Source of the DNA: Roseateles sp.
GTDB lineage: Bacteria > Pseudomonadota > Gammaproteobacteria > Burkholderiales > Burkholderiaceae_C
Direction: 5' to 3'
Assembly: GCA_019234295.1 (NCBI GenBank)
Contig: JAFALK010000062.1
Span: 62,001 to 126,000, forward strand
Length of the DNA stretch: 64,000 bases
Shown here: positions 32,780 to 38,229 of the stretch, in pieces
Layout of the letters: every line of letters starts with the position of its first letter
How positions within the stretch are numbered: position 1 is the first letter of the stretch
Notes under the pieces: model-generated
What the model saw: only the letters and a program-made list of their open reading frames with translations
What the model was told of the DNA's origin: nothing
The model's database searches: none
Translations under genes and position numbers: made by a program

Positions 32780-32971
32780 TCACTCCTCGCAGTAGCGCCG
32801 CCACCTCTCGCCGGCCTTTTCCATCAGCTTGAGCTGGCGGGTGAAGGCCACGCAGTACTTGCAGATCCACAGGTGCAGGCGCACGGCCACCCGGTCCGAC
32901 AGGGGCAGCGGCTGCTCCAGCGCTTGCAGCGCCAGATGAGTGACTTCGCGGCAGGTACGCTTGAGCTTCAT
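32780..32971 (-). CDS. Zinc-finger (ZAS/zf-HC2) anti-sigma factor
   Basis: The 63-residue protein has the zinc-binding anti-sigma signature: H33-x3-C37-x2-C40 in HLWICKYC, with an upstream CREVTHLALQALEQ helix. It has no membrane segment, so it is a soluble, possibly redox- or metal-sensing anti-sigma. It overlaps the sigma gene stop by ATGA, the usual operon arrangement. The gap to the GspE gene (32585-32779, 195 bases) shows nothing else coding. Confidence 0.85.
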   Translation of the reverse strand: MKLKRTCREVTHLALQALEQPLPLSDRVAVRLHLWICKYCVAFTRQLKLMEKAGERWRRYCEE

Positions 32972-33516
32972 GGGGCAGAGAACCAGTTGAGCTGCAGGCA
33001 TTCGCGCAGACGCAGACGCGCGCGGTGCAGCATGACCCACAGATTGGTCGGGCTGATGGACAAAAGCTTACAGACCTCATCGGTATCGAGCTCTAGCCAC
33101 TCACGCATCATGAATAGGCGCCCTTGTTGGCCAGGCAACTGGTCCACACAGGCCTCGAGCACGCGCATGAAATCGACCTGGGCCAGGGTCTGTTCGGGGT
33201 TACCCCAATCTTGCGGCGGCTCGCGCCAGTGGCCGTCCGGCCGGAAGAGCGACTCGTCCAGATCCTCGCCGTCCTCAGCCGTCATCGACATTTCGCGGCT
33301 GTTGCGGCGAACCTGATCCACGAGCTTGTGCTTGAGGATGCCGATCAGCCAGGACTTGAGCTGGGAGCGGCCGGCAAAGCTCTGCGGCTTCTCGAGCGCG
33401 GCCAGAAGGGTCTCGGACACTGCATCCTCGGCCCAGGCGCTGTTGCGCAGCTGGAGCTGGGCGTACTTCATCAGTTGGGGGCGTAGCGATTCGAGCTCGG
33501 CGGCGAATGAATTCAT
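32968..33516 (-). CDS. ECF-type RNA polymerase sigma factor
   Basis: The 182-residue group IV sigma factor shows region 2 as QLRNSAWAEDAVSETLLAAL and SFAGRSQLKSWLIGILKHKL, and region 4 as CKLLSISPTNLWVMLHRARL. It ends with a typical LRECL. The linker is longer than usual and acidic (TAEDGEDLDESL). It is divergent from the DUF2282-DUF692-DUF2063-DoxX operon and paired with a zinc-finger anti-sigma, an arrangement seen for ECF factors controlling DUF692-type operons. It is likely to drive that operon and perhaps itself. Confidence 0.93.
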   Translation of the reverse strand: MNSFAAELESLRPQLMKYAQLQLRNSAWAEDAVSETLLAALEKPQSFAGRSQLKSWLIGILKHKLVDQVRRNSREMSMTAEDGEDLDESLFRPDGHWREPPQDWGNPEQTLAQVDFMRVLEACVDQLPGQQGRLFMMREWLELDTDEVCKLLSISPTNLWVMLHRARLRLRECLQLNWFSAP

Positions 33517-33528
33517 TTGGCCGCGAGT

Positions 33529-33556
33529 GTAAGGATCCCACAGGCTCTTGCGACTT
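33529..33556 (+). promoter_or_regulatory. Candidate ECF promoter of the bufferin-type operon
   Basis: GTAAGG (33529-33534) and CGACTT (33551-33556) are separated by exactly 16 bases. As I recall, SigF-type ECF factors that control related operons in Caulobacter use a GTAAC-like -35 and CGA-like -10 with 16-base spacing, so this is the best candidate in the divergent gap. The leader would be about 75 bases. TTCATCCC is tandemly duplicated at 33611-33626 just before the RBS. Confidence 0.5.
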
Positions 33557-33639
33557 CAGCGGCGTCGGCAGATCATGCCGCACTTCTTCAACCCTTGATT
33601 GCTTCCTACCTTCATCCCTTCATCCCACAGGAGATTCCT

Positions 33640-33924
33640 ATGCAACACAAGCAAATCCTCGCCTCCGGTCTTGCCGCCGCTCTCGCCCTTGGTTTCGTCG
33701 CCCAAGCCCAGGCCGATGACAAGGCCCCCAAGGAAAAGTGCTACGGGATCGCCAAGGCGGGCCAGAACGACTGCTCCAACATCAGCGGCAGCCACTCCTG
33801 CGCCGGCCAGGCCAAGGCCGACAACGCCGCCGACGACTGGAAGTTCGTCGCCAAGGGCAGTTGCAAGTCCGCAGGCGGCCTCTCGGCCGACGAAGCCAAG
33901 GCCAAGCTGAAGACCAAGAAGTAA
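33640..33924 (+). CDS. DUF2282 secreted cysteine peptide (bufferin-like RiPP precursor, BufA1 type)
   Basis: The 94-residue precursor has a signal peptide to about residue 25 (ending AQAQA) and a mature part with four cysteines: C34 in [14 protein letters not shown]45, C54 in SHSCAGQAK and C75 in GSCKSAGG. These are the conserved DUF2282 positions. In characterised bufferins, DUF692 enzymes modify such cysteines to give copper-chelating groups and the peptide is exported to the periplasm; that this holds here is inference. RBS AGGAGA lies seven bases before the ATG. The TAA shares one base with the ATG of the DUF692 gene. Confidence 0.9.
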
Positions 33925-34727
33925 TGGCCGGCATCGGCTGGCGCCAGCCGCATTACGAACCGCTGCTGCGCGACCGGCCGGCGCTGGACTTCATCGAGGT
34001 CCACTCGGAGAACTTCTTCGCCGAGGGCGGTGCGGCTTTAGCCGTACTCATGCAGGGGCGCGAGCTGTACCCCGTCAGCTTGCACGGCGTGGGTTTGTCG
34101 CTGGGCTCGGCTGCCGGTCTGGATGCACGGCACCTGGAGCGGCTGGCCCGGCTGGTCGAGCGGGTGGAGCCGATGCAGGTTTCGGACCACGCGAGCTTTG
34201 CACGCATCGGTTCGGGCCTGCATGCGGCCGATCTACTGCCCATCGCCTACGATGACGACAGTCTGGCCCTGATGGTGCGCCATGTGGGCCAGGTGCAGGA
34301 GCGTCTGCGGCGGCCCATTTTGGTGGAGAACATCAGCGCCTACCTGGGCTGGCAGAGCGACTCGATGGCGGAGCCGGAGTTCTTCAACGCCCTGTGCAAG
34401 CGAAGCGGTTGCGGCCTGCTGCTCGATGTGAACAACCTCGTTGTGAATGCGCGCAATCTGGGCTTGCAAGCACAAGCCGCGACGGCGGCTGCCTGCGCCT
34501 GGGTTGATCAACTGGTGGACGGCATCGTTGGCGAGATTCATCTCGCGGGCCATGCCGAACTACCCGGCGTCGTGATCGACGACCATGGCAGCCGTGTGTC
34601 GGAAGCCGTGTGGCAGGTTTATCGTCACGCACGGCAGAGATTCGCGGCGGCGCCGGCCCTGGTCGAATGGGATACCGACGTCCCGGCGCTCGAGGTCTTG
34701 CTGGACGAGGCGGGGAGGGCCGCATGA
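33924..34727 (+). CDS. DUF692 multinuclear non-heme iron oxidase (BufB/MNIO type)
   Basis: The 267-residue TIM-barrel-like enzyme has the conserved metal-ligand candidates of DUF692: EVHSENF (E25, E29), H54 in [10 protein letters not shown]88-H89 in SDHASF, E135-N136 in VENISAY, D168 in [10 protein letters not shown]206/H210 in EIHLAGH, H221 in DDHGS, and E248. The family installs oxidative modifications on peptide cysteines using a mixed-valent iron centre. Start overlaps the DUF2282 stop and the stop overlaps the DUF2063 start, so precursor, enzyme and partner are translationally coupled. Confidence 0.93.
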
Positions 34728-35383
34728 ACCGCCAGGCGCAGCAGGGCTTGCTCGTCGAGGCCATTCTCGGCCGCGCCGAACCCTCGGGACTGCGCTGCCT
34801 GCCCGGCATCGAAGGCGGCGAGGCGCGCGCCCTGCAGGCCTACCGGGGCAATGCCAAGGCCTTGGCTGCGCGTGCCTTGGGCAGTGCCTATCCGCGCTTG
34901 CTCGAGGAATTGGGCGAGGCGCAGTTCGGTGCCATGGCCTGGGCCTTCTGGCGTGCGCATCCGCCCGTCAGCGGTGACATGGCCGACTGGGGCGACGCAC
35001 TGGCCGGTTTTTTGCAGGCTCAACCGGGCATGGAAGAGCGGCTCGTCGACGAAGCCCGGCTCGACTGGGCCCTGCACGAGGCGGCTCGCGCGGCAGACGC
35101 GGTCTTCGACGGCGATTCGCTGGCCTTGCTGGGAAGTGGCGATCCGGCTCGCCTGCGGCTCAGGCTGCGGCCTGGCACCGCAGTGCTCGGACGGCGCATC
35201 GTGTGGCGCAGCGGCTGGCGAGCCTTGCACGAGGAACTGGACGACTCGGCGGCGCGCTTCATGCAGGCACAGCTCGACGGGGCGAGTCTGGTCGATTCAA
35301 TGGAAGAGGGCTTCGATTTCGGGGCCTGGCTGCAGCAGGCGCTGCGCCAAGGCTGGCTGATCGGAGCGGAGGAAATTCAATGA
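34724..35383 (+). CDS. DUF2063 partner protein (BufC type)
   Basis: The 219-residue protein has an N-terminal helical domain with [23 protein letters not shown], which is the DUF2063 signature (YRxN...AL...YP), and a C-terminal region with [11 protein letters not shown] and [15 protein letters not shown]2063 proteins act as the recognition partner of DUF692 oxidases in RiPP maturation. The ATG at 34724 lies in an ATGA overlap with the DUF692 gene; longer frames run inside that gene. It overlaps the DoxX gene by four bases as well. Confidence 0.88.
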
Positions 35384-35883
35384 CGCTGAAATCCATTCTT
35401 GCCGGCGCCTGGCGCGGCTTCACCGATCCGGGTCTGGGCAGCGGGCGCATGCCGGCCTGTGTGGCCGGGCCTCTGGCGCACCTGCAATCGCTGGCCCTGC
35501 TGGGCGCGCGACTCTACGTGGCCCAGGTGTTCTGGCTCTCGGGCCTGACCAAAATCCGCGACTGGAGCACGACCCTGGCCCTGTTTGAGAGCGAATACCA
35601 CGTGCCTGTGCTGCCGCCCGAACTCGCGGCCTACATGGGCACGGCCGGCGAGCTCGGCCTGCCAGTGCTGCTCGTTCTGGGCCTGGGCGGGCGTTTCGCG
35701 GCGCTGGGGCTCTCGGTCGTCAACGTGATGGCCGCGCTGAGCCTGGAAGACATCGCCCCGGCCGCGCTGATGGGACACGAGCTCTGGGGCGTGCTGCTGA
35801 TGACGGTGGCGCTGTGGGGGGCAGGAAGGTGGTCCGTGGACCACCTGGTCCTCAGTCGCGTGGGCGGAAGCTCAGCACCATGA
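35380..35883 (+). CDS. DoxX family membrane protein
   Basis: The 167-residue inner-membrane protein has about four hydrophobic segments and the DoxX opening LGARLYVAQVFWLSGLTKI, where helix 1 ends in the typical Ser-Gly-xx-Lys. LPPELAAYMGTAGELGLPVLL follows. DoxX proteins are common last members of DUF692 operons and may supply or accept electrons at the membrane; function here is inferred from position. The start overlaps the DUF2063 stop by ATGA. Its last 32 bases overlap the 3' end of the convergent tolA gene. Confidence 0.88.
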   Translation: MTLKSILAGAWRGFTDPGLGSGRMPACVAGPLAHLQSLALLGARLYVAQVFWLSGLTKIRDWSTTLALFESEYHVPVLPPELAAYMGTAGELGLPVLLVLGLGGRFAALGLSVVNVMAALSLEDIAPAALMGHELWGVLLMTVALWGAGRWSVDHLVLSRVGGSSAP

Positions 35884-36705
35884 GGGGCTGAACGCTGCCG
35901 TCGGTATCGCGCGGCAGGATTTCGGTCTTGTCGATCGCGCGAAGCACGGCGTTGTCCCAGTCCGGGTCGCCGCTGGGCTTGACGAGTTTGCGGCCGATGA
36001 TGGTGCCGTCCGGCGCCACGCGAACCTCTACTTCGGCGGCTGGATTGCCCGCCGGGTCACCGCTGTAGATGATGTTGGGCTTCACGCGGGCCACGATGCG
36101 GCCCCGATAGCTCGACGAAGGGCCGGAGCTGCGCAGCGCCGTGCCGGTGGCCGTGGGAGCGCCGGTGGCGCCGGCCATGCCCTGCATGCGCTTGATGTAA
36201 TCCTGGCGCAGGGCCTCGCGCTTGGCGTCGGCATCCTTGATCGCCTTCTCGGCCTTGAGCTTGTCCAGTTTTTCCTGCTTCTGCTGGTCGAGCTTCTTCT
36301 TGTCCTCAGCGGCCTTCCTGTCTTCCTCGCGCTTCTTCTCGAGCAGCTTCTGCTGTTCCGCCAGCTCCTTGCGTTTCTTTTCCTCCTTGGCCTTGGCGAT
36401 GGCGATCTCGGCATCGGCGTGCGCCTGCAACTCCTCGGCCGTGGGTTGCGGCGGATTCGGTTCGCGCTTGACCTCGGGTTCGGGCTCGGGCGGGGGCTCC
36501 ACGGCCTTGGGTGCGGCGGCCTGCGGCACGGCCGACCACAACTCGGCCTCGAAGGCCTGCGGCGTGCTCGTGTGCCAGGCCACGCCGAGGCTCAAGGCCA
36601 GCACGAGCAGGCCATGGGCGATGAGCGCGAAAGCCAGGCCGCGGCCCATACCAGGCGCCTCGGGCGGGCGCAGTGGATCGTGGAAGCGCGAAAGGGCGAA
36701 GCCGG

Positions 36706-36709
<4 letters not shown>
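35852..36709 (-). CDS. tolA: Cell envelope integrity protein TolA
   Basis: The 285-residue protein has an N-terminal membrane anchor (LAFALIAHGLLVLALSLGVAW), a Pro/Glu stretch, a long charged alpha-helical region of repeated K/E/A words (about 85-170) and a C-terminal TonB/TolA domain (EVEVRVAPDGTIIGRKLV, then DWDNAVLRAIDKTE). It links TolQR energy to the outer membrane during division. It overlaps tolR by ATGA. Unlike most proteobacteria, tolB and pal do not follow; the convergent DoxX gene comes next. Confidence 0.93.
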
Positions 36710-37140
<431 letters not shown>

Positions 37141-37141
37141 G

Positions 37142-37828
37142 TCAGTGTCCTTGCACGGGCGCGCCGGCGTTGCGCTGCAGGATGTTGGAGAACTCCTCGA
37201 TGAAGGTCTCCAGCGTGATGGCACTGCGGTCGATCTGGCGCGCGAAGCGGTTGAAGGCCAGCACGGCGGGAATCGCGGCGAACAGGCCGATGGCCGTGGC
37301 CACAAGCGCTTCAGCAATGCCCGGCGCAACCGTGGCCAGCGTGACCTGGGTCAGATTGGAGAGGCCGACGAAGGCGTGCATGATCCCCCAGATCGTGCCG
37401 AACAGGCCGATGTAGGGCGAGACCGAGCCGACCGAGGCGAGGAAGGAGAGGTTGCTCTCCATCGCATCGAGCTCGCGCTGAAAGCTGGCGCGCATGGCGC
37501 GGCGCGAGGCGTCGAGCATGGCCGTGGCATCGGAGATGCGCTTCTCGCGCAGCTTGAGGAACTCGCGCATGCCCGAGGCGAAGATGCGTTCCAGCGGGGC
37601 ACCGTCCTTGCGATTGCCGACCGTGTTGAACAGCTCGTTCAGGTTCTTGCCCGACCAGAACTCCTGCTCAAAAGCTTCGTTGCCATCCTTGACCCGCCTG
37701 AGCGAGATGAGCTTGCCGAAGATGACGGTCCAGCTGGCCACAGAGACCAGCAGCAGGGCAGCGATCACGAGCTGCACGACGAAGCTGGCGTGCAGGATCA
37801 AGGAGACGATGGAGAGGTCGTTGTTCAT
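37142..37828 (-). CDS. tolQ: Tol-Pal system protein TolQ
   Basis: The 228-residue inner-membrane protein has three hydrophobic segments; the second and third (SVGSVSPYIGLFGTIWGIM and GIAEALVATAIGLFAAIPAV) are the conserved MotA/TolQ/ExbB proton-channel helices. It forms a pentamer around the TolR dimer. The start overlaps the ybgC stop by ATGA. Confidence 0.96.
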   Translation of the reverse strand: MNNDLSIVSLILHASFVVQLVIAALLLVSVASWTVIFGKLISLRRVKDGNEAFEQEFWSGKNLNELFNTVGNRKDGAPLERIFASGMREFLKLREKRISDATAMLDASRRAMRASFQRELDAMESNLSFLASVGSVSPYIGLFGTIWGIMHAFVGLSNLTQVTLATVAPGIAEALVATAIGLFAAIPAVLAFNRFARQIDRSAITLETFIEEFSNILQRNAGAPVQGH

Positions 37829-38229
37829 TGGGGGATGGCACTCAGGATGGCCTGGGGGATTCTGCTGGATTTCAAGGTCTGCGACTCAACGCAGCCGATG
37901 CGGATTTCGCCTTCCGTCAGCAGGGTTTCGCCTCGAAACGCCTGCTGGAAGATGTTCATGCTCGCGCGACCGGTCTCGCGCGGCTCCACGGTGACGCGAA
38001 GCTCGTCGTCCAGCCGGGCGCTCTGCAGATAGCGCACGCTGGTCGATGCCACCACGAAGATCAGGCCGGTGTCCTCACGCATCGCTTGCTGGCCGAAGCC
38101 GATAGAGCGCAGCCACTCGGTGCGGGCCCGCTCGAAGAATTTCAAGTAATTGGCGTAGAAGACGATGCCGCCGGCATCCGTATCTTCCCAGTACACCCGC
38201 ACCCGGTGCTCGAACGGTTTCACAGGCAT
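37825..38229 (-). CDS. ybgC: Tol-Pal-associated acyl-CoA thioesterase YbgC
   Basis: The 134-residue hot-dog thioesterase has VYWEDTDAGGIVFYANYLKFFERARTEWL-like text, of which EDTDAGGIVFYANYLKF is the catalytic signature with Asp in the first part. It hydrolyses short or medium acyl-CoA/ACP and conventionally starts tol-pal operons. It overlaps the aminotransferase gene by ten bases at its start and tolQ by four at its end. Confidence 0.95.
   Translation of the reverse strand: MPVKPFEHRVRVYWEDTDAGGIVFYANYLKFFERARTEWLRSIGFGQQAMREDTGLIFVVASTSVRYLQSARLDDELRVTVEPRETGRASMNIFQQAFRGETLLTEGEIRIGCVESQTLKSSRIPQAILSAIPQ

Follow-up and report, generated by a model that had tools for sequence, protein, structure and literature searches.

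A candidate bufferin and MsrP regulon under an extracytoplasmic function sigma factor with a soluble zinc-type anti-sigma factor in Roseateles sp.

To what signal does a bufferin operon respond when the anti-sigma factor encoded beside it has no evident membrane segment, and how far does the control reach? The question is raised by positions 32780-35883 of a 64,000-nucleotide (nt) stretch of Roseateles sp. (JAFALK010000062.1), hereafter the window, where a bufferin-1 operon is divergent from the genes for an extracytoplasmic function (ECF) sigma factor and a small anti-sigma factor. All coordinates are positions within the window, and the assembly that holds the locus comprises 4.47 Mb in 97 contigs and is 86.7% complete. 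The locus probably belongs to an envelope copper/oxidant stress regulon under this sigma factor and a cytoplasmic zinc-type anti-sigma factor, with two feedbacks at the sigma gene. The system is of a known kind: small cytoplasmic anti-sigma factors over such operons have been published for Neisseria (MseR) and Haemophilus (HrsE).

The bufferin operon and a promoter motif at three genomic sites

On the plus strand, four genes encode the DUF2282 precursor BufA1 (33640..33924; 94 amino acids, aa), the MNIO (DUF692) enzyme BufB (33924..34727), the DUF2063 partner protein BufC (34724..35383) and the DoxX membrane protein BufD (35380..35883), with successive overlaps of 1, 4 and 4 nt. The sigma gene (32968..33516; 182 aa, TIGR02943/PRK12520 type) and the anti-sigma gene (32780..32971; 63 aa) lie on the minus strand and overlap by 4 nt. 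An earlier sequence-only reading had described four tightly overlapping genes divergent from an overlapping sigma/anti-sigma pair, and the coordinates agree with it. The profile search that it proposed returned Pfam matches for the precursor (DUF2282, 6.5e-23), the MNIO (PF05114, MbnB_TglH_ChrH, 7.9e-90), the DUF2063 protein (PF09836, 7.9e-14), DoxX (PF07681, 1.8e-17) and the sigma factor (Sigma70_r2, 1.9e-12; r4_2, 3.2e-11), all above the curated cut-off. The sigma factor also exceeded the NCBIfam cut-offs of NF009173 (1e-89) and TIGR02943 (3.5e-70). The MNIO barely cleared NCBIfam MNIO_BufB (NF050167; 310.5 against a cut-off of 310), DoxX fell under that of HvfX (57.5 against 80), and no NCBIfam model matched the precursor or the DUF2063 protein at E 0.01. 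As the same reading had proposed, the precursor appears to be secreted and has exactly four Cys, with a Sec-type N-terminus (judged by eye) and KGSC after the signal. Its further claim, that the DUF692 enzyme holds all candidate metal ligands, stands in so far as the His, Glu and Asp motifs align with the DUF692 structure 3BWW. A four-Cys signal-peptide DUF2282 precursor followed by MNIO, DUF2063 and DoxX genes is the gene content of a bufferin-1 operon, and profiles and layout together support a bufferin-type operon for a ribosomally synthesized and post-translationally modified peptide next to the sigma/anti-sigma pair. Chance open reading frames were excluded, as all six genes match curated profiles (the anti-sigma gene through NCBIfam alone), and a TGA flagged within the MNIO gene proved to be its terminal stop, with no internal TGA.

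A search for the sigma factor in 200 family genomes gave 90 matches of at least 51% identity, including the window's own. We fetched 69 of the other 89 matches and 10 weaker ones with about 4.5 kb on each side, as well as one region around the genome's second MNIO gene. The family set comprised 63 loci plus the window (sigma identity of at least 53% by tblastn), and the named set was the best 80 of 517 sigma relatives, drawn from Roseateles, Paucibacter, Pelomonas, Inhella, Methylibium, Leptothrix, Sphaerotilus, Ideonella and similar genera; the two sets share species. The layout is not chance: a DUF2282 gene is encoded divergently no more than 320 nt away from 38 of the 64 family-set sigma genes, and the same holds for 58 of the 80 named loci (some of the remaining loci are on short contigs).

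The intergenic region holds an ECF-type operon promoter at 33529..33554 on the plus strand, GTAAGGATC...CGAC (N17), that is, GTAAGGATC-N13-CGAC. The motif GTAAG-N16/17-CGAC occurs in 57/58 named divergent regions upstream of the bufferin operon and in 33/38 of the family set; it was found on the opposite strand in none of the 58 named regions and in none of 50 rounds of dinucleotide shuffling. In the Roseateles genome itself, the strict form GTAAGGA-N14/15-CGAC has three matches, ahead of bufA1, bufA2 and msrP. The match on contig C85 lies 66 nt before a BufA2 precursor (NF050166, 89.9 bits) that heads an unlinked bufferin-2 operon, with genes for a second MNIO and a DUF2063 protein next in order. 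The match on contig C74 lies 24 nt before msrP (NF003767, 475 bits). Of the 20 relaxed matches in this genome, 19 were placed and one (L258) was left out.

We then turned to msrP in relatives, using 80 genomes chosen from the 200, of which 40 have and 40 lack a close sigma relative. MsrP was found in 39 and 34 of them, and 40 and 34 upstream stretches were available (with two copies in G181 and a match split in two in G180). The relaxed motif preceded 37/40 copies in genomes with a close sigma and 3/34 in genomes without (Fisher p 4e-14, kinship ignored), while the opposite strand and the reversed sequence of these stretches gave 0/74. In addition, the motif preceded 21/25 BufA2 genes in relatives, and that of L163 falls just inside an over-long start call. 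The motif was missing at L154 (from a genome without a close sigma), at L156 and L171 (both from the same genome) and at L170 (a member of a tandem pair); it is present at L169, in genome G047 without a close sigma. The tandem BufA2 genes L155/L170 (G006:C10:86045-86792), near L082, are about 4 kb away from their genome's sigma locus, and only one of the two has the motif in the 400 nt upstream. Thus three outputs, Buf1, Buf2 and MsrP, share one promoter motif, from which we infer that bufA1, bufA2 and msrP may be controlled by one sigma factor. In the related genomes G153 and G028 (L044, about 6960; L045, about 2534-2558), strict matches were also seen within the DUF2063 gene and ahead of DoxX, where they possibly represent an internal DoxX promoter or a coincidence of coding sequence.

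The soluble anti-sigma factor and the inducing signal

The anti-sigma factor has 63 aa, no evident membrane segment and the zinc motif C7-x25-H33-x3-C37-x2-C40. With Pfam zf-HC2 it scores 18.2 bits, short of the 22.2-bit cut-off, and with the NCBIfam 'anti-sigma factor family' NF052368 it exceeds the cut-off (61.9 against 50). An open frame with HxxxCxxC follows the sigma gene in 80/80 named loci, and 78/80 also have a Cys at H-26. A small soluble protein with HxxxCxxC and an upstream Cys, encoded beside an ECF sigma gene, has the sequence features of the zinc-binding anti-sigma family. The AlphaFold model has three helices (predicted local distance difference test score 89.8). Foldseek returned no match to it at E <=0.001, and three of ten rows were anti-sigma factors (RsiW, 5wuq; RslA, 3hug, twice), all weak (TM 0.58-0.59, E 4.1-9.5). 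Alignment of 45 of the 71 distinct named proteins with that of the window (46 rows, chosen by the motif itself) showed that F43, Q46 and A53 are also invariant; we discarded the invariance of the zinc ligands there as evidence, since the rows had been selected by that motif, and took the 80-locus count as the test. The soluble HxxxCxxC anti-sigma factor of the sequence-only reading is supported, and its spacing, C7-H33-C37-C40, is identical to that of meningococcal MseR (C4-H30-C34-C37).

In MseR, the residues are C4, H30, C34 and C37, of which the three Cys are needed and the His is not. The meningococcal sigma-E/MseR system (NMB2140-2145) shares with the window the zinc anti-sigma spacing, a DoxX-type operon and a methionine sulphoxide reductase in its regulon, and 8/9 positions of the window's -35 match the neisserial promoter (-35 GTMAGBWTT, 12-13 nt spacer, -10 CGTCTAAH). 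In contrast to the window, sigma, anti-sigma and targets there form one autoregulated operon, the reductase is MsrA/MsrB, and the precursor (gonophorin) is of EGKCG type rather than DUF2282. Haemophilus influenzae RpoE2/HrsE likewise combines a cytoplasmic anti-sigma factor of 67 aa with a regulon that contains a DoxX/DUF2063/UPF0276 operon, although with MsrAB instead of MsrP. With MseR and HrsE already published, the earlier statement that this signalling half is the less explored part holds only to a degree, and we dropped the description of the window protein as the first soluble anti-sigma factor over an MNIO operon.

On the output side, a close counterpart is the Caulobacter SigF regulon, which by microarray comprises CC3254-3257, CC2907-2905 and CC2748 (YedY), the last SigF-dependent only in part (PMC3511200). 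It thus shares with the window a bufferin-1 operon adjoined by an ECF sigma gene, a second DUF2282/DUF692/DUF2063 operon and YedY (MsrP). Unlike the window, however, it has promoters of the form GTAACC-N16-CGAA and the membrane anti-sigma factor NrsF with periplasmic cysteines (PMC3511200), and none of the Caulobacter sigma factors exceeds the TIGR02943 cut-off. Relative to this regulon, the outputs look conserved and the sensor exchanged.

A close counterpart in gene order is gigPABT/rpoQ-rsqA of Cupriavidus metallidurans, with the same order and divergon as the window. There, however, our search assigns RsqA to the NrsF type (245.4 bits), RpoQ is 28% identical to the window sigma, and the GTAACC motif stands in both directions. 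Within a single bacterial order, two different input modules thus appear to serve one type of operon, a zinc anti-sigma factor in the window and NrsF at gig. A broad survey of MNIO clusters mentions sigma and NrsF genes for the Buf1 type, and a term search of its main text found no zinc finger, zf-HC2, MsrP or YedY (PMC12452194). In the open-licence literature, we found no report of the MsrP/bufferin/internal-promoter combination in Burkholderiales, and DUF2282, sigma factor and methionine sulfoxide reductase occurred together only in the Caulobacter paper.

These precedents bear on the inducer. Hypochlorous acid (HOCl) is favoured by analogy, because msrP is in the candidate regulon and both HOCl and H2O2 raise the expression of rpoE2 in H. 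influenzae; copper and gold are favoured by the precedent of gig. The sequence-only reading had proposed a periplasmic metal-buffering peptide made on metal or thiol stress. The identities of the operon and the anti-sigma factor agree with this in part, but the regulon is likely wider than the locus, and its extension to bufferin-2 and msrP speaks for oxidant damage as strongly as for metal. Alternatively, the true inducer could be a periplasmic metal, as for SigF/NrsF and gig, which reaches the soluble anti-sigma factor only secondarily. The response of gig to periplasmic Cu(I) is in keeping with this, as are the bufferin peptides themselves, which are exported and chelate copper (PMC12452194), their central Cys being converted to 5-thiooxazole (PMC12452194, PMC13097082). 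We consider it rather unlikely, however, given an anti-sigma factor of 63 aa without an evident membrane segment, and a gig system whose NrsF-type anti-sigma factor and GTAACC promoter are both of another kind.

Candidate promoters within and upstream of the sigma gene

A relaxed search located a further copy of the motif, GTAAG-N16-CGAC, inside the sigma gene (33047..33071, minus strand), over the region-4 codons VCKLLSISPTN and about 76 nt before the anti-sigma start. It is kept at the same place in 53/64 orthologues and occurs nowhere else in these genes; simulation with synonymous codons (pooled usage, 2000 runs) gave a mean of 7.6 and a maximum of 16. Cys149 is encoded by TGT in 56/64 genes despite a pooled preference for TGC (144 TGC against 83 TGT), and the residue before Thr (codon 156) varies among P, S, A and T, yet its codon still ends in CG in 63/64. 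Among the 164 columns, codon 156 has the strongest third-base bias and codon 149 the third strongest.

Since kinship could mimic codon conservation, we ran codon-column and tree controls, the latter on a tree of 119 distinct sigma genes with the 104 columns that have at least 8 changes at bases 1/2. At codon 156, bases 1/2 changed 30 times but base 3 only 3 times, the lowest base-3 count of the 104 columns (leucine columns come next with 4). Codon 149 was less striking: its third base changed 11 times, compared with 17 at two other Cys columns. Of the 119 genes, 95 have the motif, which changed 16 times by parsimony. An adjacent bufferin gene is absent in 11/16 named loci without the embedded motif against 11/64 with it. 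The sigma gene appears to carry an operon-type promoter within its region-4 codons, ahead of the anti-sigma gene. The architecture has a worked precedent in C. glutamicum sigH/rshA, where a SigH-dependent promoter inside sigH drives rshA only and housekeeping promoters serve both genes (Corynebacterium glutamicum; PMC3489674); that system is, in contrast to the window, actinobacterial, with a different promoter sequence and a different regulon.

The embedded motif could instead reflect mere coding constraint on region 4, with no transcript of its own and the anti-sigma gene always co-transcribed with the sigma gene. The absence of the motif from 24/119 genes and the modest gap at Cys149 speak for this. 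So do four leucine/alanine columns that also deviate from pooled codon usage (z 5.8-9.1). However, a third base held nearly fixed at codon 156 while the residue changes, the TGT of Cys149 and a match of motif and spacing to those at the three targets make coding constraint an unlikely explanation of the candidate promoter.

The sigma gene may also have a promoter of its own that collides with the operon promoter. AGT precedes the -35 in 57/57 Buf1-region matches, and it was found before GTAAG in 0/37 msrP matches and 1/22 BufA2-locus matches. The resulting AGTGTA reads TACACT on the opposite strand, a candidate -10 of housekeeping type (33526..33531, minus strand) that would serve the sigma/anti-sigma pair and overlaps the -35 of the operon promoter. 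Where a bufferin operon is adjacent, AGTGTA lies within 160 nt upstream of the sigma gene in 34/38 family loci and 58/58 named loci (92/96). Autoactivation of the sigma gene was considered, and no ECF motif was found on the sigma strand in the 58 intergenic regions, unlike Caulobacter sigF, which has its own SigF-type promoter. The rpoQ-rsqA genes next to gig are reported to start from an RpoD-dependent promoter, and a housekeeping promoter for the window's pair would agree with this. It would also resemble C. glutamicum SigH/RshA, with housekeeping promoters for both genes and a sigma-dependent internal promoter for rshA.

The proposed circuit, its weak points and a second sigma clade

At rest, the putative housekeeping promoter would make both sigma and anti-sigma, and the zinc-bound anti-sigma factor would hold the sigma factor. 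A thiol-reactive cytoplasmic signal (disulphide stress, reactive chlorine or soft metals, for example Cu(I)) would break the Cys/His zinc site and free the sigma factor, which would then transcribe bufA1BCD, the unlinked bufferin-2 operon and msrP from GTAAG-N16/17-CGAC. The BufA1 peptide, modified by BufB-BufC and exported, would bind copper in the periplasm, and MsrP would mend oxidised periplasmic methionines. Two feedbacks would limit the response: the active sigma factor would make extra anti-sigma from the promoter within its own gene, and RNA polymerase at the buf promoter would cover the -10 of the sigma gene. The wider proposal is about evenly balanced between true and false, namely that the Burkholderiales regulon of bufferin 1, bufferin 2 and MsrP moved from NrsF to a cytoplasmic zinc-thiol sensor, with an autoinhibitory promoter in the DNA-binding codons of the sigma gene and an operon promoter that overlaps, and can shut off, the sigma promoter. 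One output set under two kinds of sensor that face different compartments would make the purpose of bufferins more directly testable; if the soluble-sensor form answers oxidants and the membrane form periplasmic metal, bufferins would serve beyond copper. The locus also offers a concrete candidate regulon and promoter, the latter seen at msrP in 26 genera, and a compact candidate example of regulatory DNA held inside a regulator's own codons.

Several findings count against this circuit. Motif number gives it no help: the Roseateles genome has 3 strict matches against 5 for the reversed control and 20 relaxed matches against 99. We discarded motif number as evidence, as the reversed control is commoner, and the weight of the motif therefore rests on its position. 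The TAA of the msrP site doubles as the stop of an upstream open reading frame on the same strand, so msrP may also be transcribed from upstream. As for the overlapping hexamer, AGTGTA is present in only 21/48 loci without an adjacent bufferin operon (7/26 family, 14/22 named). In 17 of these 21 (6 family, 11 named) the ECF motif is absent and TACACT is kept, which means that the hexamer can persist where the ECF promoter has been lost. The gap between TACACT and the annotated sigma start is only 9 nt, one of the shortest (locus median about 30), so that the sigma mRNA would be nearly leaderless or translation would begin further in. On the input side, neither H2O2 nor diamide nor singlet oxygen elicited a response from meningococcal sigma-E. 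The NrsF (DUF1109) profile found its Caulobacter control and had no match in the Roseateles genome, which would place the window system outside the SigF/NrsF regulon on the input side, an absence that 86.7% completeness makes non-final. Finally, a second ECF clade, 33-39% identical to the window sigma and present too in some genomes with a close sigma, has the same motif beside it.

Members of this clade are divergent from a response-regulator gene (read in 8/9 loci inspected) and have GTAAG-N16/17-CGAC beside them in 10/14 loci, and the clade may share promoter specificity with the window sigma. By tblastn, no bufferin gene was found beside it in the 14 loci, where no NrsF profile search was made. 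That the bufA2 and msrP sites are read mainly by such a factor is very doubtful: two of the three genomes with an msrP motif and no close sigma carry the clade (G005 and G090; the third genome is G017), as does G047, with the motif before bufA2 and none before msrP, but the window sigma is the sole TIGR02943 sigma above cut-off in its genome (235 bits, the next best 47), and msrP sites follow the close sigma (37/40 against 3/34). By eye, the response regulator beside the clade (L343-L348, L351, L356) is of the OmpR type.

Other variation was seen around the sigma/anti-sigma pairs of relatives. At locus L068, the order is altered, with DoxX directly behind the precursor and ahead of the MNIO gene, and several pairs (L053, L061, L066, L072, L080 and others) have no bufferin gene in the fetched stretch. 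Protein searches of plasmids found relatives, none with a closer gene context: 349 plasmid records have MNIO relatives and 432 have sigma relatives, and plasmids of Burkholderia glumae, which have two MNIO places and a sigma relative, predominate among the matches listed. At 35852-38229, a TolA/TonB-like gene convergently overlaps the end of the DoxX gene by 32 nt. The genes after it within that span are, we presume, TolR, TolQ and YbgC, and the bufferin operon would then adjoin the Tol-Pal cluster.

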